Shown here in pieces: positions 30,854-63,842 of a DNA stretch of 64,000 nt. Source of the stretch: Catenaria anguillulae PL171 (taxonomy: Eukaryota; Blastocladiomycota; Blastocladiomycetes; Blastocladiales; Catenariaceae); the NCBI GenBank assembly GCA_002102555.1, contig MCFL01000008.1, positions 372,001 through 436,000 of the forward strand. The letters run 5' to 3'. The position numbers and the translations under genes are program-made. Every line of letters begins with the position of its first letter. The first letter of the stretch is position 1. The notes below the pieces were generated by a model that was not told the DNA's origin, did no database searches, and saw only the letters and a program-made list of their open reading frames with translations.

Positions 30854-32974
30854 ATGCTCGCGGCCGAGACCACGTACCACCCGTCGACAGGCTTTGCGTC
30901 CCCGGCGGACGCCGACTCCAACCCAAACTCGTCGCGGGTGCTCGTGATCCTGCCACCTTCGCACAAGCACGCCGACGTGGACAGGGTCCTGGGCCTCGCT
31001 CGCCGTGCATTCGCCGACCAGTCGCTCTCGCTCGTCGACCTGTGCCTGCGCTTCGCAAAGGTAAGCAAGGACGACCTCGTTCTCGGGTCAGATCCTCCGT
31101 CGGCGGCGGCCGACTCGCCTCACACCGCCAATGGTAACGGTGTGGGCACCAAGGGCAACAACAGTAACAACAACGATGGTTGGGACGACGATGAAGACCC
31201 CAATCCAATCACCACTCTCCCTCCGCCGCTCTTCACCTCCATGCCCAAGCAGCCCAACCCGGCCGCGGGTAACCCGCCGCACACCCACAAGCTGTTCGTA
31301 TCCAATCTCTCAACGGCGGCCGCCGATTCCGACCTCAAACTCCTTCTTCCTCCCGGTCTCACGCCCGAAGAGACAAGCATTCACGCCCCGGCTCCGCGCG
31401 GACCTCGAAAGGAGATTGTGCGCGCCGTGACGTTCATTTTCAAATCCGAAGCGGATACCGTCAAGTGTTACAAGTGGGTCATGGACCAGTATGCTAAGGG
31501 CGCTCTGGCAAAGCTGACGTTGCCCCAAGTCAAGCTCAGCATTCCAAACCCTCCACGTTCCTTGGCGCTCGCCGCAGAGGCGCATCCGGAAGCCTCATCC
31601 AAACCTGCGCCGTCCGCAGCAACTGCCTACTCTCACGACGGGACACCGTCGGCTACAACCGTTCCAGCAGCTACGGACAATAGCGGAAACGGCAAATCTG
31701 CACGCTCTGTCCCCGAGCCGCCACCGACTGCACCGTTCATCAACGTCTCCAACCTCCAACCGACACTCTCGGAAACTCAAATCCTGACCTCACTCGTCCC
31801 ACACCCAATCAAACTTGCCGGCGCTATTGTTCATCCTGCACGCATGGTCGGCCCTCACAAGGAGCTCGTCAAGCAAGTCAAGCTGGCGTTCAAATCGCTC
31901 GATGACGCGCAAAAGTGCCACGATTGGATCAAGGAGCACGCCGTCGAAAAGGGCACATTGGCCAATATGGTCATCAAAAAGACGAGAATCAGCGTGACTC
32001 GACCCATTGTACCCAAAACGCCCACGGCTGCTGCTGATGGCACGACCAAGCCATCACCTGCGATGACAACCGCCGTCGCCGCAAACGCAGCACAAGAACA
32101 ACAACCTGCCGATCCGCAAGCCCCCGCTCCCTCTCCATACCCGCCCGCATCCCCAAACCACTACCGCCTACACGTTGCCAACCTACACACCTCCCTGCCC
32201 GACTCGACCCTGCTCTCGCTGCTCCCGCCCGACGTGCCGCTTGCCGGCGCAACACTTTACCCCGCGCGACCCATTGGCCCGCGCGCACTCAACATGCGGT
32301 CCGTGACTTTTGCGTTCAAGGACAATGAGTCGGCGCACACGTGCTACGAGTGGATCAAAGAGTACGATGCGGGCGGCAAGGCCACGCAAATGACGGCGGT
32401 CAAGGGCATCAAGGTGTGGGTGTCGAAAGTGGTTGGGCCGGGCGAGACGTTGAGAGAAATGTCGGCCGCAGCGGCAGATCAGGGCCAGGTGGATGCGGCG
32501 GCAAGTAAAGGGAAAGGGAAGGCAAAGGGGACAGTAGATGCCGCGCCGCAAAGTGCGCCGCCGTCGCGATCCCAGTCGCGTGCAAGCACACGTACTTCGA
32601 CAGCGGGTGCACTCGCACCTGCACCCGCCCCGGCCGCTTCGGCATCTGCACCTGCGCCAACAGCCAATCCAGTCGCCGATCAGCCAATCGAACCCATCGT
32701 CACCATCAATGGCATCAACCCCGAGTCGCCCGTGACAACGGTCATGGGCCTGATTCTTGATCCGATCCGCGGCCAACTCGACCCAACGCGCATCTTGCAG
32801 ACAGGCGTCAAGCCGCTGGATGGAACGGGCCCGCTCGCCCGCGGGTTGCAGTTTGTGTTCGACACGACTGACACGGCCAAGCGGTTTGTGGCGCACGTGA
32901 GGCAGGCAAGTCGCGATGGCAAGTATCGCGAGATTCAAGTTGTTGGGAGTGAGTTGAGGGTGGTCAGGGGATGA
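30854..32974 (+). CDS. RRM-like array protein, subfamily II (N module + 3 repeats + C module)
   Basis: A single exon of 706 residues from Met 30854 (MLAAETTYH); Met 30842 is in frame upstream. The N module is at about 28-78 (RVLVILPPSHKHADVDRV). RRM-like repeats begin near residues 143 (KLFVSNL, an almost canonical RNP2), 294 (INVSNLQPTLSETQI) and 436 (YRLHVANLHTSLPDS). Each has a hydrophobic VKLAFKS or VTFAFKD third strand and a W-I-K helix (CHDWIKEH). The C module starts near 615 (VTINGINPES) and carries LILDPIRGQLDPTRI. Linkers are Ala/Pro-rich and disordered. RRM folds bind single-stranded RNA or protein; RNA binding here is inference because the RNP1 aromatic pattern is incomplete. Confidence 0.8.
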   Translation: MLAAETTYHPSTGFASPADADSNPNSSRVLVILPPSHKHADVDRVLGLARRAFADQSLSLVDLCLRFAKVSKDDLVLGSDPPSAAADSPHTANGNGVGTKGNNSNNNDGWDDDEDPNPITTLPPPLFTSMPKQPNPAAGNPPHTHKLFVSNLSTAAADSDLKLLLPPGLTPEETSIHAPAPRGPRKEIVRAVTFIFKSEADTVKCYKWVMDQYAKGALAKLTLPQVKLSIPNPPRSLALAAEAHPEASSKPAPSAATAYSHDGTPSATTVPAATDNSGNGKSARSVPEPPPTAPFINVSNLQPTLSETQILTSLVPHPIKLAGAIVHPARMVGPHKELVKQVKLAFKSLDDAQKCHDWIKEHAVEKGTLANMVIKKTRISVTRPIVPKTPTAAADGTTKPSPAMTTAVAANAAQEQQPADPQAPAPSPYPPASPNHYRLHVANLHTSLPDSTLLSLLPPDVPLAGATLYPARPIGPRALNMRSVTFAFKDNESAHTCYEWIKEYDAGGKATQMTAVKGIKVWVSKVVGPGETLREMSAAAADQGQVDAAASKGKGKAKGTVDAAPQSAPPSRSQSRASTRTSTAGALAPAPAPAASASAPAPTANPVADQPIEPIVTINGINPESPVTTVMGLILDPIRGQLDPTRILQTGVKPLDGTGPLARGLQFVFDTTDTAKRFVAHVRQASRDGKYREIQVVGSELRVVRG

Positions 32975-33248
32975 GGCGTCATGTAGGTAGACATGTGGGT
33001 GTGGTGGAAGCTGCAAGTTTTTCATGTGAGGGTCACGATTTGCTGCAGGTAAGCTTTTCATATATGATTCCGTTTTCCAGTTTCCTCACACTGAGATTCC
33101 TAAATTTGCTCCGGCTGGTTGGCGAGACTGGGACAGCGAACTTAATTCATTCTCGCTGGCTATGGCACCGTCGCGACGGTAATGATGAAGACTCTATGAA
33201 AACATCGCACTGCATGCCATCCAACACAACAAATCGATCTGGACAGGA

Positions 33249-35621
33249 ATGACGCCACCAACAGTCAGCACCTCGACCAAATCGCCCGTCCTCGTCATCT
33301 TGCCGCCAACGCACAAGTGTCCGGACCTCACTCGAGTGCTCAAGCTTGCCCGCAAGGCCTTTGACGATGTCACACTCGACATCTTGGATCTCAACCTCCG
33401 ATTCGCTTGGGTATCAGGCGACGAGTTGGAGAAGGACGGCCCTCAGGCGCCGCCTGCCTCAGCCGCGCTACGATCTGTACAAGCGCCCCCAGCTGCACTG
33501 TCGCCAACTGTCATTGAGCCGGTTCCTGCACACTCGAACGCACTCACTTACATTGGATCCATTCCACCGGCTAGTGTTGCTCAACCGCGTGTTCTAATTT
33601 CTGATTTCGTTCCGACCTTGAGTGACGCCGAGATACTCAGCGCATGCCGCAACGGCGCGGATATTGCGGGCGCTACATTCTACCCTCCGCTTCCTCTAGG
33701 CCCTGGCCAGTCAAGCGTTCGCTCGGTCTTACTGGCGTTTTCCAAACTGAAGAGAGCCAAGCTTCACGTCCAATGGATCAAACAAGCGGCAGGCGCAGGG
33801 CTCTTGGCAGGCAAACTCGTGACGCATGTCGTGTCCGCAAATGCTATTCCGCGTCATGCGTCGCCTGACACCTTGATTCGACACAAGACGGCGGCAGCTT
33901 CCACAAGTGATTCGACTCTGCCATTTTCACCCGATCCTGCGTCCTTATCCAGTGTACCGCCTGCCGCAAATGTGCCAACAATTCTTTCCGATGCATTAAT
34001 CCCAGCGTCTGCATGGCATTTCAACGTCAACAACCTGTTTGGATCTTTGAAAGACGCCGACATTTTGGCCAGCATAGTTCCCCAAGGAATCCCGCTCATC
34101 GGAGCCTCTCTTTCCCCGCCCAAACGTCGCAGCAAGAAGCGCCCCGAACTGGTTCGTGCCGTGTCGCTGTATTTCAAGAGTGAAGTCCATGCCAACTTGT
34201 GTCTCCTTTGGATTCGTCATCACTCGAAAATCCCGACCGGACCTGTGGCCAAGTTGAGGAATCCAGAAGCTGACATTTCCATGAATCTTTCATGGAAAGG
34301 GCTGTATAAGACGGCGAAACCCAAGCATCCAACTCGCTTAGTCGCCACCTCGACGTTATCCTCAAAGCCGCAAGCCACTGTTGCTTCCTTTTCGCCGCAA
34401 TTGACTGTCGCCTCCTTGACGCCCATCATTACACAGTTACCAACACTGTACCGCCTCACCATCGGCAACCTTCTTGATCATCTCACCGAAGACCAGCTCC
34501 GCACCACCCTCGTGCCACCTGGTGTCATACCTGTTTCATTTCAACTTTTACCGTTGCGGCCACTTGTCGTCTGCCCCGTGATGGCCGGGACGGTTCAGCT
34601 TGATCTCGCTTCTGAGCGCGATTTAAACCTCACGCACGACTGGATCAAGGCCGAGGCTGTTGTTGGTGGTCGCGTGGCGCAATTGTTAGTTCCCAATTCC
34701 GAAATCTCTGTCCACATCCTCAAACTCACTGCTCCGCCAGCCCCGACAGCACTCACGTCACCCAGTTCAACGCCCGAAAACCCTTCCACTCCCGCTTTGC
34801 CTGCTCAGCCTGCTGGACCCGCCCCAAGTCCGCTTGATGTGTTGCCGGAAGCGTCACCTGAGCATTACCGCTTGCATGTTTCCAACCTCAAGCCTGGCCT
34901 CGAACTCGCGCAAATAATTCCTGCGCTTGTCCCTCACAACATCAAACTCGCGGGCGCCACCCTTTTCGAGCCGCGCCCGATGGGCGGATCTCGCCGTGTG
35001 CTTGTGCGGTCGCTCAAGTTTGCCTTTTTCACGGAATCGGATGCCAAGCAATGTCAGCAGTGGATCAAGAAGGATCTTGACGGAGGCGTTTCTCGGCTCG
35101 TGCTTCCGGGTGCAAAGCTTGTTGTCGGCAATCCCATGGACCCAATGGTGTCCAATGTACCAGAATCGCATCATGATGATCTGGGGATGAATGGCAATCC
35201 GGATGTATTTCAGCCAACGGCGCCAGCCGGCCCATCACGGTTGCGTTCGCCGTCGGCTACTTCGGTCGCGTCATCAACAACCACGGCAACCTCAATGGCT
35301 GGCGAGTTATCCACGTCGCACTCTTCCTTGCAACAGCTCACGCAACACAAGCAATTCCGCATTTCTCTCACTGGGATCGACCCGTCCTTACCTGTTTCGA
35401 CCGTGTTCAGTACCATTCTCGGCTCTCTTGAAGGTGCGGCTGCTGAGCCGGCACGTGTTGGCGTCAGGAGCGCAAACGGGCATCGAGGGGCAGAGTTTGT
35501 GTTTGACTCGGAAGCGACGGCAAAGCAGTTTGCATTGCAAGTGTGGAATGGCATCAGAAAGGGAATGTATACGGGGTTGACGGCCGTGGGGGAGGAACTG
35601 ACGATTGAAAGGAAAGTATAA
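33249..35621 (+). CDS. RRM-like array protein, subfamily I (N module + 4 repeats + C module)
   Basis: A single exon of 790 residues. The N module is at 12-62 (SPVLVILPPTHKCPDLTRV, RFAWVSGDELE). Repeats begin near 113 (RVLISDFVPTLSDAEIL), 255 (WHFNVNNLFGSLKDADIL), 400 (YRLTIGNLLDHLTEDQL) and 539 (YRLHVSNLKPGLELAQI). The fourth has the strongest RNP1-like strand (VRSLKFAFF) and ends PGAKLVVGNPMDPM. The C module starts near 703 (FRISLTGIDPSLPVSTVF). It is the only subfamily I member on the + strand here, and its closest relatives are on the other arm (48181-63126), so an inversion or an inverted duplication created the convergent layout. Confidence 0.82.
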   Translation: MTPPTVSTSTKSPVLVILPPTHKCPDLTRVLKLARKAFDDVTLDILDLNLRFAWVSGDELEKDGPQAPPASAALRSVQAPPAALSPTVIEPVPAHSNALTYIGSIPPASVAQPRVLISDFVPTLSDAEILSACRNGADIAGATFYPPLPLGPGQSSVRSVLLAFSKLKRAKLHVQWIKQAAGAGLLAGKLVTHVVSANAIPRHASPDTLIRHKTAAASTSDSTLPFSPDPASLSSVPPAANVPTILSDALIPASAWHFNVNNLFGSLKDADILASIVPQGIPLIGASLSPPKRRSKKRPELVRAVSLYFKSEVHANLCLLWIRHHSKIPTGPVAKLRNPEADISMNLSWKGLYKTAKPKHPTRLVATSTLSSKPQATVASFSPQLTVASLTPIITQLPTLYRLTIGNLLDHLTEDQLRTTLVPPGVIPVSFQLLPLRPLVVCPVMAGTVQLDLASERDLNLTHDWIKAEAVVGGRVAQLLVPNSEISVHILKLTAPPAPTALTSPSSTPENPSTPALPAQPAGPAPSPLDVLPEASPEHYRLHVSNLKPGLELAQIIPALVPHNIKLAGATLFEPRPMGGSRRVLVRSLKFAFFTESDAKQCQQWIKKDLDGGVSRLVLPGAKLVVGNPMDPMVSNVPESHHDDLGMNGNPDVFQPTAPAGPSRLRSPSATSVASSTTTATSMAGELSTSHSSLQQLTQHKQFRISLTGIDPSLPVSTVFSTILGSLEGAAAEPARVGVRSANGHRGAEFVFDSEATAKQFALQVWNGIRKGMYTGLTAVGEELTIERKV

Positions 35622-36150: not shown

Positions 36151-38139
36151 CTATATCTCATGACACCCTTTTGCGCTCTTGAGCGTTTCGAGCATACACA
36201 GACCATTGACGAGCCCAGAATTGATCCACCATCGGATCACGGAACTGCGATTCTTTGAGCGTTCACATCGAATGGAATTCCACAGCGCTTGCTCTGAAAA
36301 GAGAAACGACCATCCCGATTCCTTCAACCACCATTCAAGGACGAGCGCACGTCCATGGAAACTGGCCAAGTCAATCGCTTTTGTGACTGTGCGCGGACTG
36401 GGGGCTGGAAGATTGCGTTCTTGCCACCATTCGAGTACCGAAATCTGGCCCGACCTTGCCGCAGCCTGAATCACAGTGTCCCTGTGTGGAGAGGTTTCCA
36501 CCGCCGTAGAGATCCAGCCAAATGCGTAAAAGAGGTCAAGAACACAGAGGGAAGCGAATTGTGCTGCTTGCTCAAGGCATTCGCTGCGCACGGACTCCAG
36601 CATCCCCATACCGTTTAAATAAGTCAACATTTCCACATGTCCTTGTGCTGCACAGTCGGAGATGACTTGATTCATTTCCAGCATCTGGTTGAGATCGTTT
36701 GCATAGTCCCAGCATCGCTTACCAAACTGAGCAACGAGCCATTTCAAGCATGCAACCTGGTTGTTCTCAATTACATCACTCACAAAGTAAAAGAGAACGA
36801 GGTCGTTGGTTGTCTTAACCTTGATGAGGGGCTGTAGCTCTTGTAAAAGGTGGACGTGCCCAAAGCCACATGCTTGCCGCACAACCTGGCCAAATTGCAA
36901 CTCGTCCATGGTCATCAAATCTTGGTTGACAATCAGGTCACCGCACCCAAAAGCAGCCAACATAGCTGAGTCCTTGGGAACCCGGCCCAGCGCCATCATT
37001 TGCGCACTCGGCCCCACGAGCATTTGCTTGTACAAGTTGCATTTGTTCCACCATTCAATCACGGCCACGTGTCGCTTTTCACAAGCATCAAGATACGCTT
37101 GAGGCGTAAATCGAAGCTCCAAACCAGAAAGGGCAAACCACTCAAGCACGGCCAAATGCCCGTTTTCGCTGGCCTTGTCCAGAGCCCATACCGAGTAGCG
37201 GAAAGACCCTGGGCCAGCATTTGCAAAGAACCAATCAAGCACATTGACGTGTCCGTTTTCTGCTGCACTGTCTACGCAATCCTCGACATCTGCTGGCAAT
37301 GGCCAGAGCATCTTGACAAACCAATCCAGGACAGTGACATGGCCACCGCAACTTGCCGATTCCCACATATTGTCCGTGATCTCGGGATCAGACAAAGTCG
37401 CGTACCAATCAAGAGCATCTGTCCCTCCAAGTGCAACGGCAACCTCGAGTACAGTGACAGGGTCGAAAACCGCTTCATTTTCAGATTTTTGATACAGATG
37501 CTCCAGCATGTCAGTATCTCCACGCTCAACAACCTTCTTGATCGAATCAATCGAAACCGCCGGCAAGTGGTGTCCCTGGCGAGTCCACCATTGGACGACG
37601 TGAAAATGACCCGCCGCGATCGCACCATTGACAGCATCCACGCTCGAGCTCGCCATCCAAAGCTCTGGATCCGTCTCGGGCATGCTTTTCCACCAGTCCA
37701 GCACACTCAGATTACCCGCCATGCACGCGGCGGAAATGATTGCTTTGCCCAAGGCGTAATGGTCCCGAGCGGGTTTCAGCAGCTTGAGAAAGCGAGAGTG
37801 CGCATGATCGCCTCCACGAAAGAGGCCAGTGAATCCCTTTCGGACATGATTAAAATCGTCCTTGATTGCAGTGCACAAGGCCGAGCAAAAGGCTGCAGGC
37901 ACAACGGTTGGCGGCAAGACGTGGATGAGTGTGAGAAACGGTGTGGGCGGTTCATCGAGGGAGGCGATCACGGCGAGGACGAGTTCTTGCACGTTGAGCG
38001 GTAGGGTTGGTAAAGCGTCGCGGCGGGACATGGTGGATGGGTTGCTGAGAGTATTGGCATGTGTCATGGCATTTTTATTCATGGTACTTGTGGCGAAAAT
38101 CTGCTGGCCGCGATCCATCGATCGGCCGGAGCCGCCCAC
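36151..38139 (-). CDS. Ankyrin-like repeat protein inside the RRM-like cluster
   Basis: A single exon, up to 662 residues. Alternative starts are Met at 38082 (MNKNAMTH) and 38031 (MSRRDALPTLP). The one at 38031 directly precedes the conserved F-box-like segment LPLNVQELVLAVIA and leaves more room for a promoter. Repeats include GNLSVLDWWKSM, GHVTVLDWFVKML, GHVNVLDWFFANAG, GHLAVLEWFALSGL and GQISVLEWWQERNL, about 33 residues apart. It lies head-to-head with the 38166 gene, the two most distal starts only 26 bp apart. Confidence 0.85.
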   Translation of the reverse strand: MGGSGRSMDRGQQIFATSTMNKNAMTHANTLSNPSTMSRRDALPTLPLNVQELVLAVIASLDEPPTPFLTLIHVLPPTVVPAAFCSALCTAIKDDFNHVRKGFTGLFRGGDHAHSRFLKLLKPARDHYALGKAIISAACMAGNLSVLDWWKSMPETDPELWMASSSVDAVNGAIAAGHFHVVQWWTRQGHHLPAVSIDSIKKVVERGDTDMLEHLYQKSENEAVFDPVTVLEVAVALGGTDALDWYATLSDPEITDNMWESASCGGHVTVLDWFVKMLWPLPADVEDCVDSAAENGHVNVLDWFFANAGPGSFRYSVWALDKASENGHLAVLEWFALSGLELRFTPQAYLDACEKRHVAVIEWWNKCNLYKQMLVGPSAQMMALGRVPKDSAMLAAFGCGDLIVNQDLMTMDELQFGQVVRQACGFGHVHLLQELQPLIKVKTTNDLVLFYFVSDVIENNQVACLKWLVAQFGKRCWDYANDLNQMLEMNQVISDCAAQGHVEMLTYLNGMGMLESVRSECLEQAAQFASLCVLDLFYAFGWISTAVETSPHRDTVIQAAARSGQISVLEWWQERNLPAPSPRTVTKAIDLASFHGRALVLEWWLKESGWSFLFSEQALWNSIRCERSKNRSSVIRWWINSGLVNGLCMLETLKSAKGCHEI

Positions 38140-38165
38140 GCCCGCCGGCCGTCGTTAACGCAAAG

Positions 38166-40573
38166 ATGCGTGTGCGTATAAATGCGGCCCCCGCTTCGAC
38201 TTCCCGACGAGGCGACAATGTCATTGCAATGAGTTCACTCGATGCAATCATGTCTGATGAGCACAAGTCATCGCTGCCGCCGTCATCAACCGGCCCGGCC
38301 CCCGTTTGCCACGCTTGCGGTTGTCGGTGTGGACAAACGTTGGTCTCTCACGGCCAACTGGCGACCCAGAGCCAAATAGATCACTCACAGGTCCTTGTCC
38401 TTATCGTCCCCGAGTCCCATTCCACTTGCACTGGCGACGGCGACTCCATTTCCAATCAAGTCCTCGCCCTTGCCAGGGAGACGTTTGGCAACGCTTTCAT
38501 CGAGCCTCACCAATTGCACATCAAGTCGCTTGTGGACGAGGATACCTCTGCAACCCACCGGGCTCCACAAGCCGAAATTGATCCTGCCACTGTGCCATTG
38601 CCTCCGTCGCCGTTCTTGACGGCCGCCGAGTTCGACGACCCTGTTGATTGCCCCGACCTCGGCCACGAAAACGACAATGAGCTGCCCGAGGCTAGCTCGC
38701 CGCTCACGGACTCGCTTCATGCTCAAATCGTTCAAGCGCATGACAGCGACCTGAAGCCGTCTTCAAACCATCAAGAGGAGCCGGCGGCGAAACCATCACC
38801 TGCGTCTCGCCTGCCTGAAGCGTCCCCCGACATGTACCGCATCATCCTCAGCAACCTCGTGCCGACCGTGACCAATGACCAAATCTACAGCCTCACTTTC
38901 CCGTACTCGCTTCTTGTTCGCGGGGCCACCTTTTACCCGCCTCGCCCGACCGAACCGGGCGGCCCAATGGCCCGGTCTGTCATGTTTGGGTTCCGCGACC
39001 ATAACTCGGCAACAAAGCTCGCCAATTGGTTGATTCAAGGTCAAGCGGGCGGCCGGTTGCCTGAATTGGTTGCGCCGTTTGGTTTCGCCAACATTTCCCC
39101 TGTTATGCGGCCCGTATTGCCAGAGCCAGAGCCACTGGTCAAAGACACTGCACCATCAGAGCAAAACGGCAACGCTTATTCGATTGATCTCGATCTTGCG
39201 GCTCGCACTGCCAAGGCCGGTTTGCCCAATGGTACTTTCTATTGCTGCGTGTCATGACTCTCTTGATCTGGATAAGCTCCTGATACACATTGCTTGTCCA
39301 TGTAGGCTCCTCCAAGCAGGAATCACAAGCTCCCAAATCAACTACTCGCCGGCCAATTGCATCCATCATTACGGATTCCGACCACCGTCTTCAAGTCTTC
39401 AATCTCCTTGCCACCCGCTCCGAATCAGACATTCTATCTCTCATTCCGGAGCACATTCAGCTCACAGCTGCCGTTTTCCAACCTCCCACCATGGTTGGTC
39501 CCAACCGGCAACTCAAGCAATCCGTCACTCTTGGATTTGCCAACGGTGCAGATGCCCTTGCGTGCTACCACTGGATCCAGAATCTCCTGACCAATGGCAT
39601 GTTGGCGGATTATCTGGTTCCCGATACCAAGATTTGTGCGGCTCCGCCGTTGCAACCAAAAGCGATTCATCCGAGGCCCGAACCTTTACCCGCATCCGCA
39701 CTCGCGACTGCTCAATTTCAATCGATGGCACCCACTTTTCCATACCCTTCGCACATGTCCTTCCAGCCTCAACCCCAACCGCAGCAGCAACAATTGCAAG
39801 CGCAATCACAACCGCCTCCCATGTGGCCATACCCGCCTGCTTTCCAAAATTCCGTCTGGGCTGTCCCTGTGAACGCAGTCCCACTCCAACCTGTCGGCGT
39901 GTATTACCAGCAGCCACAAGCCTCACGCCCGCCCACCTCACCGACCTACTTTTCCGCCGCACCGTCTGCGGCTCCGTCATGCGTGGACAAGCGGCACATT
40001 TCGCACGCCAGACTGAATCAGCCAGTAGCGTTTCCCTTGCCTCCATCGTCCATGTCGCCTGCGTCGCCACAGCCCGCTGACCCAATGCCGCCCAAATCTG
40101 CTCCGGCGCCACAAACCAACAACCCTTTGTCGGCACTCGCGTCCGCGTCCGCACCCACCTCGGCTCCTATTTCGCCACCCATCACACCGACCGTTACGCC
40201 TGTTCCGCGCAACCCGTCGCTCGAACCGCAACCAGCCGACCCCACGCCTCGGGCGGTCGATTCCGTTTCCGGTGCCGACGAGTTTGGCATTACCATTCAC
40301 GGCATCAATCCGCTGGCCTCCGTGTCTGCAGTCCTTGGCACCGTTCTCGACCCGTTGCGTGGCCGCGTGAGCCCGATTCGCATTCAGCAAACGGGCGTGC
40401 ACCCAATGCTCGACACGGAGGATGTGCAAGTGGAAGCGCGCGGGGTGAGGTTTGTGTTTGCGAGCGACGATGACGCAAAGCTGTTTGTGAGGCATGTGTT
40501 TGAGGCGAGTTTGGATGGGGAGTTGAGCGAGATTACGGCGGCTGGGTGTCGGTTGAAGGTGGTCAAGGGGTGA
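38166..40573 (+). CDS. RRM-like array protein, subfamily II, with an N-terminal Cys cluster
   Basis: Two exons, 38166-39231 and 39306-40573 (74-bp intron GTACTT...TAG, phase 1), give 777 residues. Met 38229 is an alternative start. A cysteine cluster CHACGCRCG lies near residue 48, found in no other member. The N module is diverged (VLVLIVPESHS near 76, with a longer loop before NQVLALARETFG). Repeats begin near 224 (YRIILSNLVPTVTNDQI) and 383 (RLQVFNLLATRSESDIL). A Pro/Gln-rich linker (about 480-560) leads to the C module near 682 (ITIHGINPLASVSAVL, VLDPLRGRVSPIRI). The Cys cluster might bind metal; this is not testable from sequence alone. Confidence 0.78.
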
Positions 40574-41263: not shown

Positions 41264-41320
<57 letters not shown>

Positions 41321-51693: not shown

Positions 51694-54600
51694 CTAAGCT
51701 CCACTTCCACCCCGCCTGCAGTTCCCCGTCACAACTTTGAGCTCTCTCCCATCCGCCGTCAGCCCAGCATACATGCCTGCCTTGATTCCCGTCCGCACCT
51801 GCAACACAAACTGATCTGCCACCGCCTCCGAGTCAAACACAAACTCCGAGGTGAGCCGTCCATTTGCACTACGCACGCCCATGCGCACAGGCTCAACGGG
51901 ACCCGTCAACGAATCAAGAATGGTGCTGAACACGCTCGACACGGGTTTCGACGAATCAATCCCAGTGACGGAAACGTGCACTTGCCTTGATGGCGTCGGA
52001 CTCGGCGCTTCAGATGCCAATGACGGGAGTGTCGGAGAAACGCGTTGTGTCTTGGGCACCGGCGACTGCGTCCGTGACCGTGACAAAGGTTGAAACGGAT
52101 GTGTAGGCGGATCCGCCATCATTGGGTCCATGGGATTCCCCACGACAAGGTGTGCACCTGGCAATGCGAGCTTGGACACGCCTCCCCCAACGTCCTGCTT
52201 GATCCACTGCAGACATTGCTTGGCATCCGATTCGGTGTAAAAGGCAAGCTTGAGCGATCGAACGACCTCGTGGCGCAAACCACTTAGTGAACGCGGCTCT
52301 AAAAGCGTGGCGCCGGCGAGTTTGATGCCGCGAGGAACGAGTACTGGAATGATGTGAACGAGCTCGAGGTCAGGTTTTAGGTTAGAAACATGTAAACGAT
52401 AATGCTCAGTTGATGCTTCGGGCAACGCGTCGATCGCGCCCAGCACATCGGGCTCGTGCGACGCCAGAGGAGTGGATGGATGTGGAACAGTTGGACTGGA
52501 TGGAAACGGTTCAGTAGGTGAGGTAGCTGCCAGCGTGGCGCCCGTGACAGTGACATTGGTATTGGGAACGAGCACCTTGGCAACAGAACCACCCGCAACA
52601 GCTTGATCTTTGATCCAGTCGTTCGTCAGTTGCAAATCGCGCTGGGATTCAAATTTCAGTTGGACAAATCGAGCCTTTTCCGGTCGACCCGCGAGTGACT
52701 TCAAGGGCAAAAGGTGCATATCAACCAGCGATACGCCGGCTGGTACGAGCGCGGAAAGAAGTTGGTTCTTGGTGAGATGGTCGAGCAGGTTGCCAATTGT
52801 AACACGGTGGATTGCTGGTGGCGGAGTGACTGGCTGAGCCGCGGGCATGTCAGACGACGATGAATGGGGCGGTGTGGAAGCTGACGAGGCAATAGATCTA
52901 GTCGTCGAATTGGCTTGCGGCGGCTTGCATGAATGATTCATGTAAATGCTGGCTGTTCGCACAATCATTTTGGCAACACATCCACCCGGTTTCGAATGAT
53001 GCTTGATCCAAAGTCCACACAAATTGGCTTCGACTTCGGTCTCGAACGCAAGCGTGACAAACCGGGCGAGTTCGGGACGGCCAACACCAAGAGGTTTGAG
53101 TGCGTGAAGAGTTGCGCCAATGAGCTGAATTCCGTCGGGAATGATGTTGGCAACCATTGACTTGTCCGCAAATGAATCGCGCAAGTTGCCCACCGTCAGG
53201 CGCCATGCAGCGTCGTCGGCATCTGGCAGGTCACTCGGTACAGATGCGGCTGACGGGACGGCGGCCAAGGATGATGGATCAGGTGAAAATGGTAAAGGAG
53301 AATCGGACATCGCGGCCGCTGCTGCCGCCTTGACGTGCATCAAGTCTCCAGGCGATATGCCTGCCGGCAGCATGTTCACCGATAAAACTGGCGTCACAAC
53401 CTTGTCAGCCAAATCCCCAGCGCTTGCCGCTTGTTTGAGCCAGTCAATGTGCAGCTTGGCGTTCTTGGGCTTGTCAAACGCCAATAAAACGGAGCGAACC
53501 TTTGATCGCCCAGGACCCAACGGGAGCGGCGAATAGAATGTCGCGCCCTTGATAGCGGCGTCACCATTGGAGCATGCGCTGAATATCTCGGCGTCACTCA
53601 ACGTTGGCACAAAGTCGCAAATGAGGACCCGTGGGTCATGGATGGCGGCTGGTTTGATATTTGACACGTCGCAGGCGAGGGCATGAGACTCGACAGTGGC
53701 CGGCTTCATCGTATGAAGCGAAGCTGGAGAGCATGGCTCCGCGGCCACAGCGACATTAAGAGGCGATGCAAGTATGGAGTCACCACGGACTGAAGGCTTG
53801 AATCAGTTGAATGCACAGCAACGAGAGAATCACGCGCAAAGATCAATACATGCCATCAGAAGGAGTCGCCATCGAAACCATAGGAGATGGGACTTTTGGG
53901 TTTGACTCGACTTCGAGCCGCGATCCCTCCACGATTCTCTTGAGGTCCAAACTGATATTGAACTGCCACTTGATCCATCCCTTGTACCACTTGATCTCCT
54001 CCTCGGACTCGAACACGAGCGTGACAGAGCGACCAGTGGGATGCGAGAGGGGTTGAAATGACACGCCAAATGGGACCAGTCGTCGCGGAACGGCATTCAA
54101 GAGAATGTCGAGGTTGCTTGCGCTCGCAGCAAAGCCCGTGAGCGTGACATGCCAGGGACTTGATTTCGCCGCAGCGGGCGGCAGATTGCTGAGCATGTGA
54201 GAAGAATCGGTCCCAAGAAATAAGTCGGCTCTCTTGAAGCTCATGGAACCTTCCACAGAGTCTCTCGGTAAAATAACCATTGTGAAGCAGTTATCAGGCC
54301 GCCCACCTGGAAACAAGAACGATTCACCAAGGCTGCCTTTGCTGACGGCCGAACGCAACCACGACTGATATACCTTGACATGACTGGGATTACTGAAGGC
54401 AAAAGCGGCCGATCGCACCATGCTGTTGTTTGGACCAATCGGTCGGGGCGGGTAAAACGTCGCGGAGCTGATCGTGACATTGTGCGGCGCTAGCTGAAGG
54501 ATTTGAGCATCAGACAGAGTGGGAGCGAAGCCCATGACAAGGAGACGCATGGAATCGATTGGCGCTGGGGAAATCGCATTCGCCGGCTCGGTAAATGATG

Positions 54601-54877
54601 CCATCGGCGTAGGTGCAGGTGCAGGTGCAGGCGGAGAGCTCGAAACCATTGTCGACGCAGCTGGGGCTGCGGGTGTGGATACCCGCACCGTGTTTTCCTC
54701 GTCCGCTTGCAATTCGTCACCCGACACCCACGCAAACCTGAGGTTGAGGTCCAAGATGTTGAGTGACAGATCGTCAAAGGCTTTGCGGGCAAGCTTGAGC
54801 ACTCGAGTGAGGTCCGGGCACGCGTGCGACGGCGGCAGGATCACCAGCACGGGCGCCTTGGTCGAGGTGGTGGTCAT
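51694..54877 (-). CDS. RRM-like array protein, subfamily I, largest array (N module + 6 repeats + C module), possible GC-AG intron
   Basis: Two long open segments (54877-53854 and 53789-51694) join if a 64-bp intron with a GC donor (GCATGT...TTCAG, 53790-53853) is removed in phase 1, giving 1039 residues. The first half matches the start of the 48181 gene: N module, then repeats near 106 (MRLLVMGFAPTLSDAQIL) and 239 (WHVTLTGFAASASNLDIL). The second half matches the 33249 gene minus its start: repeats near 393 (RVLICDFVPTLSDAEIF), 535 (WRLTVGNLRDSFADKSM), 665 (HRVTIGNLLDHLTKNQL) and 800 (YRLHVSNLKPDLELVHI), then the C module near 950. It therefore looks like a recombinant of two members. If the GC donor is not used, it would be two partial genes. 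Confidence 0.7.
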
Positions 54878-55338: not shown

Positions 55339-56907
55339 CTATGCTGCCATTGGATCCATGGGATTGCCCACAACAATCTTTGCCCCGGGCAACACCACTT
55401 TGGACGCACCACCACCCGAATCTAGCTTGATCCACTGCTGACACTTTTTGGCATCTGACTCGGTGACAAATGCAAACTTGAGAGACCGCACCAGCTCGCG
55501 GCGAGACCCGCCCATTGGGCGCGGCGCAAAGAGCGACGCACCAGCGAGCTTGACGCCGCGCGGTACGAGCGAAGAAACGAATTGGGCAAGCTCGAGGTCA
55601 GGCTTGAGATTGGAAACGTGAAGACGATAATTGTTTGGTGATGCTTCGGGTAAAGGGTCGTCCGTGGTAGCCGGAACGGATGAGGTTGCAGTGGCTTTTG
55701 GTGTGGTGTTGGCGGTTTTCGATGGTGTTGGCTTTTGTGCAGCTAGAGGTACGGTCGACCCTGATGACGACACAGCCGCAGACGACTTGACCTTACGAAT
55801 GTCTGCAACGACCTTGGCTTTGGGGACGAGTAGATTTGCAATGCGGCCACCCTTGCCTGACTCGGCCCGAACCCAGTCATGCGCTGCTTGAGCGTCACCT
55901 TGGGTGGCAAAGTCAATCCAGACATAAAGGCACTTGTCTGGCCGGTCACTGAGTTGAACGAGAGGTTGAACACTGAGATCAATGAACGACACGCTGGGTG
56001 GAATCAGAAGTGAAGAGAGCTGAGACTTGCTGAGTGTCGGTAAAAGGTTACCAACAGTCAGGCGGTATCGAGTCGACTTGTCCCCACTTGAAGTCGGTGC
56101 AGGTGGACGAGTCACTGGCTGGGCAAGAGAGATGGGCGTGGTGACTGCAGGCGCAGCTGAAGTTGAGGAAGAGCTAGGAGTAGGAGACGAGGAGCGGGTA
56201 CGAGCTTTACGAGGTGCGCTGGGCTCATTGAGACCAATTTTTCCTTTTGGCGTAATGATTTTGCGCAACGCCCCGCCATCCTTTGATTCCTTCTTGATCC
56301 AATCGTAGCACGCAAATGCGTGCGCTTTCGACGCGAATGTCAGCTTGATAGATCGCACCGTTTCGGGCCGCTCCTTGCCAAGTCGACTCGGAGGGAGGGC
56401 AGTCGCACCGGTCAGGGTCACTCCTTTAGGAGCAATGTGAGCGAGAATCTCGTCCCTGGACAGGGTACCGATAAAGTTGCCAACGACCAGCTTCCAATCA
56501 CAATCACGGGCATCGGGAACAACTGTTGCCGTGGCTGATGCTGCTGAGCCGTTTGGCAACGCGGCCAGAACAGTCACAGGCGCAGCAACCTTGGCGATGA
56601 TGGCGGCAGGTCGCGCAGGTGGTTTGGGCGGTAATGGCGAATCGAGTGCAGGCGCGGGTACCACTCTCGTCTGTGCCGGAAGCACGACAGGTTGCGCGGC
56701 AGGCGGTGACCCAATGGCGTGAAGAGCAGGGTTTTCAGTCTGCAGCTCGTCGTCGGATACCCAAGCAAACCGAAAGTTGAGATCCAAGATGTTGAGTGCG
56801 ACATCGTCAAAGGCCTTGCGGGCAAGCTTGAGGACTCGTTCCAGATCTGGACACTTGTGCGTTGGCGGCAAGATGACGAGGACGGGCGATTTGGTCGAGG
56901 TGGTCAT
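55339..56907 (-). CDS. RRM-like array protein, subfamily I, lacking the C module
   Basis: A single exon of 522 residues. The N module is at 6-56 (SPVLVILPPTHKCPDLERV). Repeats begin near 136 (WKLVVGNFIGTLSRDEIL), 283 (YRLTVGNLLPTLSKSQL) and 430 (YRLHVSNLKPDLELAQF). The protein ends just after the GNPMDPM motif of the last repeat. Every other intact member continues there with a 60-120-residue linker and a TGIDP module. The stop is clean (TAG) and no trace of the module follows, so the loss is by deletion, not by a point mutation. Confidence 0.82.
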   Translation of the reverse strand: MTTSTKSPVLVILPPTHKCPDLERVLKLARKAFDDVALNILDLNFRFAWVSDDELQTENPALHAIGSPPAAQPVVLPAQTRVVPAPALDSPLPPKPPARPAAIIAKVAAPVTVLAALPNGSAASATATVVPDARDCDWKLVVGNFIGTLSRDEILAHIAPKGVTLTGATALPPSRLGKERPETVRSIKLTFASKAHAFACYDWIKKESKDGGALRKIITPKGKIGLNEPSAPRKARTRSSSPTPSSSSTSAAPAVTTPISLAQPVTRPPAPTSSGDKSTRYRLTVGNLLPTLSKSQLSSLLIPPSVSFIDLSVQPLVQLSDRPDKCLYVWIDFATQGDAQAAHDWVRAESGKGGRIANLLVPKAKVVADIRKVKSSAAVSSSGSTVPLAAQKPTPSKTANTTPKATATSSVPATTDDPLPEASPNNYRLHVSNLKPDLELAQFVSSLVPRGVKLAGASLFAPRPMGGSRRELVRSLKFAFVTESDAKKCQQWIKLDSGGGASKVVLPGAKIVVGNPMDPMAA

Positions 56908-57239: not shown

Positions 57240-60194
57240 TTATCTCCAACCGCTGCCGCCCTTGGCAATCTTGAGCTCTTCTCCTGCCGCCGTCACTTCC
57301 ACATACTTTCCCTCCCGGATTCCCATCCACACCTGTAACACAAACTGCTTTGCCGTCGCCTCCGAGTCAAACACAAACTCGGCTCCTCGCCGTCCATTTG
57401 CGTTGCGGACGCCCATGCGCAGGGGCTCAACAGGGCCCGTTAGCGATCCGAGAATGGTGCTGAACACGGTTGACACGGGCTTGGCTGGATCGATGCCAAT
57501 CAGTGAGATGTGGAGCAAGGGCGCACCCATCGAGGAAGTGCGAAGCGACGATGTGTTGGACGACACGGATGGCGAACGTGATGGCTGACGAGATGCGAGA
57601 TCGGAAGTGCGCTGTGTGTTTGAGGTGGCCAACACGGCCGTGGCCGCGTGCGGGCTGGGCGGCAATGGCCGTGCTTGGGCGAGCGCGAGAAGGCTGGGAG
57701 ATATCGGCTCTTCCACCGCACCACCCGCGCTCTTGTCAGCCTCGGCCGGCGGATCCGCCATCATCGGGTCCATGGGATTGCCCACAATAATCTTTGCACC
57801 TGCCAACACCACCTCGGACACACCACCACCCGAATCTTGCTTGATCCACTGCTGACAACGTTTCGCGTCCCATTCTGTGAGAAATGCAAATTTGAGCGAC
57901 CGGACCAGCTCGCGGCGCGATCCGCCCATTGGTCGTGGGGCAAAGAGTGACGCGCCAACGAGCCGTACGTCGCGCGGGACGAGCGCGGGAATAATTTGCT
58001 CAAGCTCAAGGTTTGGATCAAGGTTGGATACGTGCAGACGGTAGTTGTTGGGCGAAGCTTCCGGAAGGTCGGTAATGGTAGCAGGTGAGGCATGCAAGGA
58101 GTTTGAATGTGCCGAAGATGGTGGACTGTGCGTGTGTGACGAACGAGGTGCGGGTGCTGGTACCGGTACTACAGAAGGAGAAGTGGATGGCTTGATGATA
58201 TTGATAACCGGCTTGACTTTTTGCGGCAGTAAGCCGGCAACAAGTCCTCCTGCCACTGCTTGCGAACGGATCCAGTCGTGTGCGACTTGAAGTTCATGCT
58301 CGGATTTGAACTCAAGGGCAACGTAGCGGCACTTTTCGGGATGGCCAGTGAGCTGTTGGGATGGATGAAGAGTCATTCTCGAAGGTGAAAGGCCTGGTGG
58401 GAGAAGATTGGCAAATAGCTGGTCCTGAGTAAAGTGATGGAGAATGTTGCCAACTGTGAGACGAAACGGCGATGATGGATTTGCCCCGGGAATGCTGGCC
58501 GGCTGTGGGGAAATGGCGCACGCTAAAGGTGGGCCCGATGCTCCAGTGGTGATGCTGCCTAACGAGATCGATGCAGGCGGAGTCATGGCAGCCGAAACGT
58601 AAACCTTGGCTCCGGGTGAAACCAAGTCAGTCATTGGGCCGCCAACGTCGGCTCTGGATGCGATCCATTCGCGACACACCCGTGCGTCAGATTGGGAGTC
58701 AAAAGCGAGCGTCATGTAGTGAACGGGCTCGGGACGGCGAGTGCCAAGGGGGCGCGGGGGGTGAATCGCTGCGCCTGCCAGGTTAATGCCGGAAGGGATG
58801 ATGTTTGCAAGCACATCTGCAGCGAGTGCGGACGGCCGTAGGTTGCCAACCTTGATCCGCCAATGACAGTCTTGCGGTTCTGGTACGCTGGCGGGAAGAG
58901 TTTGGGCAGACAATGGAAGCGACGGAAGCTTTGCCTGTGCACCGCCAATTTGGAGCGGACGAGAGGCAGTCGGTGATGGGGTGGGCTGTTGGGTAACCGA
59001 TGAAGCCGGCGGTGAGCTGTTGTTGGTCGGGCCAGCGGGAGTCGTAGCAGGAATGAGTGTGGCGGCCGTTGGACGAGGAGCACCAGGTTCATTCAGACTG
59101 AGCTTGCCATTTGGCGTGATGATTTTACGCACAACCCCGCCCTCATCAGACTGATTCTTGATCCAATCGTAGCAAGCAAATGCATGGTCTTTTGACGCAA
59201 ACGCCAGCTTGATAAACAAGACCATCTCAGGCCGCCCTTTTCCAAGTCGGCTCGGTGGGTACATTGTCGCACCTGTCAAAGTGACGCCTTGAGGTACAAG
59301 GCTGTTGATAATCTCTTGCTTGGAGAGGGTGCTGATAAAGTTTCCTGCGACAAGCCGCCAGTTACGATCGGTGGCCTGGGGAAGACCGTGCGGCACTGCT
59401 GCTGCCGCCGGGGCGCAGGATGATACTGTAGCAGCGTCTTTTGCAACTTGCGGGGCCGTCAGCGAGTTGCCGAAAAGCAACGACTTGTTGGGCTCGCTCA
59501 ACGTTTCCTCGAGCTCCACTCTTTGCGGAAGGAAGATGGTCAAGACACTCTTGGTCATCAACTTGCCCGCCAGCGACCCATTCGCGGCTGACTGCTTGAT
59601 CCAATCGAAATACTCCTTGGCGTGCTTGGCCTTGGCAAAGGCAAAGACAACCGAGCGAACCATCGACCTGCCGAAGCCCAAGGGTCGCGCTGGGTAGAAT
59701 ATTGCGCCAATGATTTCAATCTCGGGAGGACACATGCCGAGAATTTCGGTGTCAGACAAGCTTGGTGCAATGTCGGAAAAGAAGATTCGGAAACAGTTGG
59801 GATCCGCCTCCTTGATGGACAATTTGCGGACTGCGACTGCCGTTGTCGTCGCGTTATCTGACTGAGCGGCCAGTGGCGCGGGCAGCGCAGGCCGAACGGC
59901 TGCCGGCACCGGTGCTGCACCGGCGTGCGGTTGCGGAAGCGCTGGGCGACTTGAGGTGGTTTTCGCAGGCGAGAGTCCATGGGGACCTAAGCTGGGAGCG
60001 AAACCCTCCTCCATCAAGTCTGGCTGCAGCTCATCGCCCGATACCCAAGCGAATCGAAGGTTGAGGTCCAAGATGTGGAGCGCGAGGTCGTCAAAGGCTT
60101 TTCGGGCGAGCTTGAGGACTCGTTCCAGATCCGGACACTTGTGTGTGGGCGGCAAAATCACGAGCACGGGCGATTTGGTCGAGGCGGTGGTCAT
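57240..60194 (-). CDS. RRM-like array protein, subfamily I (N module + 5 repeats + C module)
   Basis: A single exon of 984 residues from the ATG at 60194, chosen because it sits in a strong context (CCGCCACCATGACC) directly before the N module. The frame is open further upstream but without family similarity. Repeats begin near 133 (FRIFFSDIAPSLSDTEIL), 277 (WRLVAGNFISTLSKQEI), 443 (WRIKVGNLRPSALAADVL), 573 (FRLTVGNILHHFTQDQL) and 717 (YRLHVSNLDPNLELEQI). The C module starts near 893 (LHISLIGIDPAKPVSTVF). It has the longest array without any intron. Helix 2 motifs read FDWIKQS, CYDWIKNQ, CREWIASR and CQQWIKQD. Confidence 0.83.
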   Translation of the reverse strand: MTTASTKSPVLVILPPTHKCPDLERVLKLARKAFDDLALHILDLNLRFAWVSGDELQPDLMEEGFAPSLGPHGLSPAKTTSSRPALPQPHAGAAPVPAAVRPALPAPLAAQSDNATTTAVAVRKLSIKEADPNCFRIFFSDIAPSLSDTEILGMCPPEIEIIGAIFYPARPLGFGRSMVRSVVFAFAKAKHAKEYFDWIKQSAANGSLAGKLMTKSVLTIFLPQRVELEETLSEPNKSLLFGNSLTAPQVAKDAATVSSCAPAAAAVPHGLPQATDRNWRLVAGNFISTLSKQEIINSLVPQGVTLTGATMYPPSRLGKGRPEMVLFIKLAFASKDHAFACYDWIKNQSDEGGVVRKIITPNGKLSLNEPGAPRPTAATLIPATTPAGPTNNSSPPASSVTQQPTPSPTASRPLQIGGAQAKLPSLPLSAQTLPASVPEPQDCHWRIKVGNLRPSALAADVLANIIPSGINLAGAAIHPPRPLGTRRPEPVHYMTLAFDSQSDARVCREWIASRADVGGPMTDLVSPGAKVYVSAAMTPPASISLGSITTGASGPPLACAISPQPASIPGANPSSPFRLTVGNILHHFTQDQLFANLLPPGLSPSRMTLHPSQQLTGHPEKCRYVALEFKSEHELQVAHDWIRSQAVAGGLVAGLLPQKVKPVINIIKPSTSPSVVPVPAPAPRSSHTHSPPSSAHSNSLHASPATITDLPEASPNNYRLHVSNLDPNLELEQIIPALVPRDVRLVGASLFAPRPMGGSRRELVRSLKFAFLTEWDAKRCQQWIKQDSGGGVSEVVLAGAKIIVGNPMDPMMADPPAEADKSAGGAVEEPISPSLLALAQARPLPPSPHAATAVLATSNTQRTSDLASRQPSRSPSVSSNTSSLRTSSMGAPLLHISLIGIDPAKPVSTVFSTILGSLTGPVEPLRMGVRNANGRRGAEFVFDSEATAKQFVLQVWMGIREGKYVEVTAAGEELKIAKGGSGWR

Positions 60195-60552: not shown

Positions 60553-63126
60553 TCACTCCCGATTCTCACCTCCGCAGCTCCCTCTCCCGATTCGCAACTC
60601 GCACCCATCGGCCGTAATGCTCGCAAGCGTCCCTGCCTTGATTGCCATCCACACCTGCAGCACAAACTGCTTGACGACGGCCTCAGCGTCAAACACAAAC
60701 TCGACTCGCAGCCGTCCATCGACATCCCGGATGCCCATCTTGTCCGGCTCAACCGAGCTTGGCAGCGACCCAAGGATGGTACTAAACACAGTCGATGCGG
60801 GCGTACTCGGGTCAATGCCGCTGATGGAGATATGAAACTGTTTTGCACTTGTTTTGGCTGACGTGGTTGACGCAGCCAACTCGGCCGCGGTCGGCAGTGC
60901 TTGCGAGTCGTCACGTCGACGAGACAGAGACGGAGACGGCGGATCGGAACCGCAAGCGTTGTCAACCAGTTCCACACTTGCCTCAGGCTGTGGATCCAAC
61001 GACACATGTGGCTCCTGGAGCTTCCCAATGTCTAATCTGATTCCTGACAACGCAACCTTGGCCACACATCCGCCCAAATCCTGCTTGATCCACTCGCGGC
61101 ACCGCTTGGCATCTGCTTCCGTCACAAACGCCAGCTCAAGCGACCGCACCAGTTCACGACGGTACCCGCCCATTGCGTGAGGCGCAAGGAGTGTTGCACC
61201 GGCAATTGTCATGTCTTGAGGGACGAGCATGGGAAGGATTCGCGCAAGGTCGAGGTCTGGTCGGAGATTCGACACGTGAAGTCGAAAGTGGTCTGGTGAA
61301 GTGTCGGGCAGATTGGCAAATGAGGACGATGCTATCATATGAAATGACATGGGAGATGCGCGTCAGTCAAGACCAAGTGGGCCAAAAGCCAAGAATATGT
61401 CGGAGATCGCACATGTTGGAGGCGGTACTGGTCCCAGCGGCAACTTGCTCATTGTCACGGCAACCCTGACATTGGGCGGCAAGAGCTTTGCAACGCGTCC
61501 GCCGGCCACTGCTTCGGATCGGATCCAATCATGCGTTGCTTGCAAATCGTGCTCAGAATCAAAGTCGAAAACAATCGAGCGGCACTGTTCTGACCGGCCA
61601 GAGAGCTGCTGGAGCGGTTGGATCGACATGTCCGTGGGAATGACGCCTGGCGGGACAAGGGCGGCAAACAGTTCGTCGCTCTTGAGATGATGCAGGAGAT
61701 TGCCGACGGTAAGCTGAAACCTTGGAGTGGGCGGATGAGGAGGGGAGGAAGAGGGTGAAAGATGATTTAAAGGCGAGCCAAACGAGGAAAAATCAGATGA
61801 TAGCGAAGATATCAGGGTTGAAAGCGAAGAGATGGATGGTGTCGAAGTGGATGCTACGTTGTCAGATGTAGAATCGCATGTGCTTGATGGCGCTGACACA
61901 ATCGGCGGCAATGGGCGACTGATGCTGATTCTGAACGTCGGAACAATCACCTTCGCCACCAAGCCACCAGGGTTGGATCGCTTGAGGATCCACGCCCGGC
62001 ACGCGATCGCATCAGCTTCGGAATGAAATGCCAGCTTGACGTCCCGCCCCTGCGGAGTCTGCTCGGTGTGACCGCGTCCGTTGCTCCCAAGTGCCTTGGG
62101 AAAACGGATCGTCGCGCCCGCAAGAATACAGTGACGAGGCACGATGCTAGCGAGAATCTCGGATTTGCTGAGCGACCCAATCACGTTTCGCACAATGAGC
62201 CGCCAGTAGGAATCGTGCGCCTCGGGTAGGTGAGCGGGACGAGTTGGTGATGGTGAAACAGGGTTTGCGGGCTGGTCTTGACTGGTCACAGCCGGGTCTG
62301 ACTCGCCATCCTGGTTCAAAAACGCTACCCTCTTGCCCTCTGGCATGAGCTCTTCTGGCGCCATTCCCCGAGGTAGAAAGTACACGGTCACGCTTGGGAC
62401 CACAAACACGCGGTCGAGCAACCTGTTTCCGGCCTCCTTGACCCATGCGTGGAATTCCTTGGCCTGCCTTGCCCTTTGGAACGCAAATGTGGCCGAACGA
62501 ACCATCGTACCGTTTGCACCGAGCGGCAACGGCCGGTAGAATGTGGCGCCATTGATTATCGTGTCGGGCGGGCACACCTTGAGAATGTCGGAATCCGACA
62601 GGGTTGGGACAAGGTCCGATACAAACACGCGGAAGCAGTTGATATCAGCTTCTTGAATGATCGTTGGCGTTGTCAGAGAGACCAATGAAGCGTGAGCGGC
62701 GGCTGATGGAGGCTGCTCGGTCGCGTAATATTGAGCACCGCCAGGAGCAAGTGGCAAGCATTGAGTGACGGCCGGCGCCGGAGGAGGAAAAGATGCTGCA
62801 GGTGAATGAGAAGGTAAAGCCAAAGAAACATGTTCTTGCGTCGTCGCTGATCCAGTCGACCCATTCGCCTCATGATGATCGGCCCAGCTGGCCGTGGCGG
62901 CCGGTGTGTCATCCGGCAGTGGAGATGATGAAGGTTCATCGTCCTTCTGCAACTCGTCACCGGCAACCCAGGCAAACCTCAGGTTGAGGTCCAAGATGTT
63001 GAGCGCGAGATCTTCGAAGGCTCTGCGCGCGAGCTTGAGCACGCGCTCCAGGTCCGGGCATCGTTGTGTCGGCGGTAAGATCACGAGCACGGGGGATTTC
63101 GTGGTTGTAATCGAGGTGGCCAACAT
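60553..63126 (-). CDS. RRM-like array protein, subfamily I (N module + 4 repeats + C module)
   Basis: Two exons, 63126-61413 and 61331-60553, with an 81-bp intron (GTGCGA...TAG, phase 1, TTGACTGAC branch-like sequence), give 830 residues. The start MLATSITTTKSPVLV is chosen because it directly precedes the N module. Repeats begin near 164 (FRVFVSDLVPTLSDSDIL), 305 (WRLIVRNVIGSLSKSEIL), 468 (FQLTVGNLLHHLKSDEL) and 587 (FRLHVSNLRPDLDLARI). The C module starts near 736 (FHISISGIDPSTPASTVF). A Ser-rich linker (SISSLSTLISSLSSDFSS) lies before repeat 3. The intron lies between repeats 3 and 4, unlike the introns of the 48181 and 51694 genes, so introns were gained or lost independently. Confidence 0.82.
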
Positions 63127-63262
63127 TTCGGTTGTGATTTGTGAGTCACAGAGGATTGCATGGGGTCGTTGGAAGTTGCACGATAAGAAATATACATGGC
63201 AGAGCTGACTGGACAATCCTTCGTAATCGAACACGATCTCTGCTCACACGCTCTTACCCACT

Positions 63263-63842
63263 TCAACTCGCACCCTCGGCCGTGATCCCACCCTGCTTTG
63301 CCTCTGCCTCTGTACAAAATGTGAACAATGCAACCCCTTCGCCGCCCGTTCTCATGCCGAACGCCCACACGCAGGTTCAACAGGGCTCGACAAGGACCCA
63401 AGAACAGTGCCGAAAACGGCGGCAACAGGCTGTGCCGGATCGATGCCTTAGATGGAAACGTCATGTTCTGGTTCTTGCGTCCGGTCTGGCAAAGAGCGCG
63501 ACGAGGGCGAGCCTAGCGAAGCTTCCGTTGAGTACGTTCGTGATGAATCGTCTGCGCTGAGCGTGGGAGAGAACGGCGAAAGTGAGAATAGCGGCGAGTA
63601 AGGCCGGATCAGTAGCTTGACATGGAAGGGGCGGGTTCGTTTGTGCGTTTGTGTCGAGTGGGATAGAACGCGGCATATGGTGCAAAAAATCTTCGCTTGC
63701 TTCCAGCCTTTCAGGCGACTGCCTCCACGGCACAGTTCGCCGACCTGTCCATCTTACGAGGGCACTGGTGTCAGGGCGGCAGGATCACGAGCACGGGCGA
63801 CTTTGACGAGGCAGCCAGTGGACCGGAGGCGGTGGCGGTCAT
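63263..63842 (-). pseudogene. RRM-like array gene remnant (N module start and eroded C module)
   Basis: An ATG at 63842 is followed by an N-module start (SSKSPVLVILPP) that runs into TGA immediately after the two prolines. Near the other end, IDPAQPVAAVFGTVLGSLSS and VALFTFCTEAEAKQ, then ITAEGAS, match the C module in two frames. A 16-18-residue piece (the FVLQVWMGIK helix) is deleted. All central repeats are gone. The remaining middle is Leu/Arg-rich and unrelated. Confidence 0.7.

Follow-up and report, generated by a model that had tools for sequence, protein, structure and literature searches.

Divergent RRM-like repeats in a tandem gene array of Catenaria anguillulae

What kind of domain has been multiplied in a dense tandem gene array of the blastocladiomycete Catenaria anguillulae PL171, and what might it bind? 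The array lies in a 64,000-nucleotide stretch (the window) of a 41-Mb assembly, positions 372,001 to 436,000 of contig MCFL01000008.1 (C436:372001-436000). A preliminary description made from the sequence alone had seen there an apparently undescribed family of RNA recognition motif (RRM)-like repeats, with ten intact genes and three remnants in 33 kb sharing an N module, one to six repeats and a C module. Our analysis supports a predicted RRM-like fold for the repeats, and finds that the aromatic residues by which canonical RRMs stack on RNA are mostly lost. The account that we tentatively favour is an intracellular multivalent scaffold, whose divergent RRM-fold beads would be used mainly for protein contacts, in a manner like that of UPF3.

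Open reading frames (ORFs), together with profile hidden Markov models (HMMs) trained on the modules of the window itself, place the family at 30.8-63.5 kb of the window (Table 1, which also gives the gene names used here). The modules were recovered in order, mostly at E 1e-15 to 1e-35, values that exclude a chance origin of the pattern. Ten genes and three remnants are indeed present; ‘intact’ was too strong a word, as five of the genes are split over two ORFs and g56 lacks a C module. The shared plan was likewise recovered by the HMMs, the exceptions being g56 and g38, whose degenerate N module falls under the HMM threshold and was recognised by eye only. N modules measure about 50 residues, repeats about 85-95 and C modules about 88, with long Pro/Ala/Ser-rich linkers, and the number of repeats per gene ranges from one (g41 and g43) to six (g54). 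The C module, previously set apart from the repeats, is itself homologous to them (hhalign P 5.1e-10). For the N module, profile comparison gave no relation to the repeats and no PDB relative, and its structure model is of low confidence.

In profile-profile comparison, the 34 repeats of the window aligned with 18 RRMs of the same genome over 67 co-linear columns (hhalign score 31.9, P 3.7e-6), a score equalled by none of 200 column-shuffled RRM profiles (maximum 16.4). Control profiles for ACT, HMA and EFG_C, each holding only 5-7 sequences, scored 7.5-8.0. The profiles support homology of the repeats to RRMs, a link that runs through the repeats only, as the C module alone gave a non-significant P of 0.048 against RRMs. 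No Pfam RRM family matched at E up to 1 in 8 array ORFs or in the 34 single repeats, and the 142 genome-wide matches of RRM_1 (PF00076) include none on C436, with 150 of 157 candidates scored. Searches of the repeats against PDB profiles returned nine matches, five of them RRM entries at E 0.42-1.7; napin and pronapin entries (E 0.0045 and 0.034, about 21 residues) were rejected as a local helix match. Also set aside, as chance matches, were PH_35 on g56 (E 0.0011, 19.4 bits against a cut-off of 28), Tir_receptor_M (E 0.13 in array ORFs and 0.019 in single repeats), Umbravirus_LDM (E 0.083, array ORFs), and weak matches of SseB and DUF3950 to single repeats.

Structure prediction also supports the RRM-like fold that the preliminary description had proposed. 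A single-domain AlphaFold2 model of the last repeat of g50 (48679-48933, minus strand; class D, see below) is confident (pLDDT 92.5, pTM 0.79), and the full 987-residue model of g60 shows all six beta-alpha-beta-beta-alpha-beta elements in four of its five repeats and in the C module. Confidence in the g60 model is mostly pLDDT 80-97 over the repeats, with dips to 63, and mostly under 50 in the linkers. A caveat is that in both models class D lacks a clear fourth strand, the single-repeat query stopping before the expected last strand. Foldseek gave 13 matches to the full g60 model at E up to 0.001, eight of them multi-RRM entries and five not RRM entries, with the U6 snRNP core (4n0t_A) best at 8e-6; the single class-D repeat had no match at that threshold. 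In the structural comparison ACT chains do as well as RRMs, and fold alone does not discriminate between RRM, ACT and PII-like domains. We give very little credence to the alternative that the repeats are ferredoxin-like domains of another family, such as ACT or PII-like small-ligand sensors: in the sequence profiles the RRM score is 31.9, and the ACT score, from a profile of 7 sequences, is 8.0, the level of the shuffles (no PII-like profile was tried).

The canonical RNA-binding RRM stacks on RNA through aromatics at RNP2 position 2 and RNP1 positions 3 and 5, according to the available text of one source (PMC11638515). Aromatics occupy these positions in 6, 10 and 1 of 46 array repeats, compared with 15, 15 and 16 of the 18 RRMs from the same genome, which were picked among the top-scoring of the 142 and so lean canonical. 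The register was taken from the repeat-RRM profile alignment and from the way hydrophobic residues alternate along strand 3. The 46 repeats comprise 42 from C436 in or beside the window and four from outlying genes; the near-duplicates on a second contig (C448) and L017, partial repeats, and the outlying genes L033 and L034 were left out. No repeat class has all three usual aromatics, and a single one is retained by some members of classes A, B and C; in the C modules, read by eye in the alignment, each position is aromatic in 0 of 14. The earlier reading of the segment VRSLKFAFF as RNP1-like needs amending, as it aligns with S and K, in place of aromatics, at RNP1 positions 3 and 5. The canonical RNA-stacking aromatics are mostly lost from the repeats.

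This loss weighs on the close rival of the protein-contact account, namely that the arrays bind RNA (or DNA) by means of loops and a basic sheet face poor in aromatics; each class would read a short motif and the string a composite site. We consider it possible, if somewhat doubtful. Besides the RRM homology and the single aromatic kept in some members of classes A, B and C, it can draw on the basic character of the repeats, which have a mean charge of +3.2 and a mean pI of 9.0 compared with -0.7 and 6.6 for the 18 reference RRMs. Other RNP positions are kept as well, N at RNP2 position 5 in 36/46 and F/Y at RNP1 position 8 in 45/46, although the latter says little about RNA because the position-8 F most likely belongs to the core. 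A precedent may be Trypanosoma P34, which, in the portion of the source available, binds 5S rRNA mostly by RRM1, with mutation of RNP aromatics being non-disruptive (PMC5436847). Against RNA binding stands the near absence of an aromatic at RNP1 position 5 and of any class with the usual three.

In a tree of the 46 repeats (87 columns, many forks unresolved), 34 cluster by their position in the protein and not by gene, the other 12 being unassigned. Support was 96/98 for class D (the last repeat, 8 rows), 95/87 for class C (9) and 98/92 for class A (7); class B (8 rows) is weaker, at 80/78, and a separate pair, B2, reached 100/100. Clustering by position indicates that whole genes were duplicated with bead order kept. 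An extra block of A plus B2 in g54 is common to g50. The sheet face inferred for class D is nearly fixed, with R2, H4, S6, N7, S48 and A52 each in 8/8 and K50 in 7/8. Mean charge differs by class (D +5.8, B +5.2, A +3.0, C +0.3), and a tryptophan in helix 2 and an aromatic ahead of strand 1 are conserved in 42/46 and 35/46 repeats, respectively.

We read these features through the UPF3B RRM-like domain, the analogy on which our inference of protein contact is based. According to the text available to us (PMC9177958), that domain lacks typical RNP2 residues, has on its own a poor affinity for double-stranded RNA (9.2 uM) and is considered to be suited primarily to contacts between proteins. On the scaffold account, each protein would consist of an N module of about 50 residues, one to six divergent beads of RRM fold joined by disordered linkers rich in Pro, Ala and Ser, and at its end the C module, a bead of the same fold that has diverged further. 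The sheet face of the beads, basic and poor in aromatics, would mainly contact proteins, much as the UPF3B domain contacts UPF2, and any contact with RNA would be at most weak and electrostatic. The near-fixed class-D bead, with the shared N and C modules, might dock to a common partner, the varying upstream A, B and C beads determining what each copy brings to it, while the family would expand and contract through tandem duplication and deletion. An intracellular role is assumed because no signal peptide or membrane segment was seen by eye (no predictor was run). A more elaborate proposal, that a fixed dock of class D and N/C modules combined with interchangeable A/B/C readers provides combinatorial, lineage-specific recognition, with copies gained or lost between haplotypes, we regard as rather unlikely.

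The likeness to UPF3 appears to be one of manner, not of kinship. It consists in an RRM fold that lacks the customary RNP residues, as the available part of PMC9177958 describes it, and in structural similarity: when Foldseek was queried with the D repeat, UPF3A/B chains filled 8 of its 22 best rows, none of which is significant. Specific sequence kinship is lacking, and the array, unlike UPF3, has tandem copies. Comparison of the repeats with the organism's own UPF3 by hhalign covered 19 columns at P 0.027, a weak comparison with UPF3 as a single sequence, and Smg4_UPF3 (PF03467) had no Pfam match in 8 array ORFs.

With multi-RRM proteins (raver1, Pub1, Prp24; RRM_1) the array shares the predicted fold, profile homology and the carriage of several beads on flexible linkers. 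It differs from the RRM superfamily in that no Pfam RRM model matches its repeats and the stacking triad is mostly gone, and in having the helix-2 tryptophan, the aromatic before strand 1 and an N module of its own. DND1 RRM2 (PDB 6le1), at 18-20% identity, belongs to a two-RRM RNA binder solved with RNA (7q4l). U2AF homology motifs (UHMs) are defined by an Arg-X-Phe motif, which by eye is absent from the loop between helix 2 and strand 4 in the 46 aligned repeats. They exemplify, in the portion of the source available, an RRM fold converted to protein binding (PMC11638515).

As far as tested, the family is undescribed, as had been suggested. No description of it was found in the available portions of open-licence literature on RRMs, gene families and comparative genomics of Catenaria, Allomyces and Blastocladiomycota, or under the locus-tag prefix. 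Homologue searches scored 7,995 and 7,994 candidates, those with most words in common, and in a third case 3,108 candidates; among these the matches were all to proteins encoded on this contig (P0001-P0005). That is weak evidence for an absence of orthologues from Allomyces or other zoosporic fungi, the 3,108-candidate search having missed the known paralogues P0001, P0002, P0003 and P0005. The family has so far been seen only in Catenaria anguillulae.

The preliminary description also called the family rapidly changing, and comparison with C448 separates two components of this. Most of the array is found again on C448, at about 94-98% identity, and we infer that this contig is the other haplotype. 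Across 14 exon stretches of nine genes, with exon limits partly guessed and g43 omitted as mostly missing from C448, the ratio of nonsynonymous to synonymous change (dN/dS) was 0.19 in domains (3752 codons) and 0.60 in linkers (3234 codons). The g41 stretch containing the 42909 C module had dS 0.048 and dN 0.035 with no stops, and no stop was found in the C448 copy across the in-frame array rows compared. The row for the ankyrin gene at 28256, with 419 codons out of frame, was not used. Domains are under purifying selection between the haplotype-like copies, and the changing part is copy content and linkers: a 2.47-kb segment (window 43573-46040) is missing from C448, removing most of g43 and leaving the start of the gene. 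A 2.4-kb segment is present on C448 only (L012 about 1237-3657), at a site matching window 38106-38110, and has no match within the C436 stretch.

Structural differences of this kind, including the loss from one copy of most of g43, would fit a recognition repertoire, in which copies differ from strain to strain or between haplotypes and serve in self/non-self or host interaction. Such a role would also suit a tandem family with remnants, the ankyrin-repeat genes interleaved and nearby, and an organism called nematophagous in the portions of the literature available. We nevertheless judge it improbable, as domain change between copies is purifying and not diversifying, in the nine other genes the compared stretches have open frames on both copies, and no secretion signal was apparent by eye. 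The same open frames and constrained domains speak against a set of decaying or transposon-borne duplicates without function; the three remnants, and an insertion of long terminal repeat (LTR) type that one copy carries in an adjacent stretch of the array, would fit it, and it strikes us as a very remote prospect. That 6.85-kb insertion (C436:439419-446266; L009:3419-10000 and L010:1-266) lies just beyond the window on one array copy only. It ends in direct repeats of about 180 bp that are 100% identical, with a short apparent target duplication, and resembles a recently inserted LTR-type element with an array gene on either side; its large ORF (1081 aa) had no Pfam match at E up to 0.01.

Within the window the array occupies 33 kb, as originally stated, in two convergent blocks of five plus-strand genes (30.8-44.9 kb) and five minus-strand genes (48.2-63.1 kb), and it continues some 12 kb past the window edge with two further genes, to about C436:448,325. 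Searching the genome with four family members and reading the matched places with HMMs added six genes or partial genes on C436, near 462 kb (one), at 476-480 kb (two), 533-536 kb (two) and 590-592 kb (one), for a total of 18 full or partial family genes inside 190 kb. There is also a weak match of g43 at C436:490443-490616 (E 0.008). Among the matches listed, the only other contigs are C448, C95 and C18, all carrying near-copies of C436 genes; these searches scored the best candidates only and may have passed over copies that are more distant.

Four of the ten genes (g31, g33, g43 and g60) have all three modules in a single ORF, and five (g38, g41, g50, g54 and g63) need an intron. The joins in g38, g41, g50 and g63 are putative, as are their intron borders. 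For g54 a search for GT-AG introns gave no candidate; it is annotated as one 1039-aa protein that joins both ORFs (BCR44DRAFT_1295695, P0002), and comparing this protein with the DNA points to a GC-AG intron, some 64 bases long, at about 53790-53854 (minus strand). Ankyrin-repeat ORFs flank and interrupt the array, one standing at its edge and one inside it, and an ordinary M1 aminopeptidase gene lies upstream.

Table 1. Array genes, remnants and neighbouring ORFs, in window coordinates
Feature	Position	Strand	Modules	Remarks
Ankyrin-repeat ORF (Ank_4 and others)	7675-10222
Ankyrin-repeat ORF (Ank_4 and others)	16111-18120
M1 aminopeptidase gene	23302-26549	+	Peptidase_M1_N, Peptidase_M1, ERAP1_C	two ORFs
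Ankyrin-repeat gene	28256-30445	+		array edge
g31	30854-32974	+	N 30932-31078; three repeats; C module 32699-32968	706 aa, single ORF
g33	33249-35621	+	N 33282-33428; repeats A-B-C-D; C module 35361-35612	790 aa, single ORF
Ankyrin-repeat gene	36151-38118	-		inside array
g38	38166-40573	+	degenerate N; two repeats; C module 40289-40567	two ORFs, putative intron near 39232-39305
g41	40814-43202	+	N 41045-41191; repeat 41498-41734; C module 42909-43187	two ORFs, putative intron
g43	43358-44857	+	N; one repeat; C module	499 aa, single ORF
Remnant	45997-46215	-	one truncated repeat	HMM E 6e-19
g50	48181-50675	-	N 50487-50633; repeats (HMM) 50094-50321, 49692-49925, 49072-49329, 48679-48933; C module 48214-48465	two ORFs, putative intron near 49536-49627
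Remnant	51308-51418	-	3' part of class-D-like repeat	HMM E 2e-8
g54	51694-54877	-	N; six repeats; C module	split over two ORFs
g56	55339-56907	-	N; repeats B-C-D; no C module	522 aa
g60	57240-60194	-	N; five repeats; C module	one ORF, protein modelled full-length
g63	60553-63126	-	N and A-B-C in ORF 61363-63126; D and C module in ORF 60553-61350	putative intron
Remnant	63370-63447	-	C-module piece	HMM E 1e-5

RRMs are among the commonest eukaryotic domains. To our knowledge, it is unusual for them to form tandem families in which nearly all beads lack the RNA-stacking residues while purifying selection acts and positional identity is kept, and this family is invisible to Pfam. Should the beads bind protein, this would be a lineage in which a repeat scaffold has been made out of an RNA-binding fold; should they bind RNA, their mode of binding would be one that dispenses with the aromatic triad.
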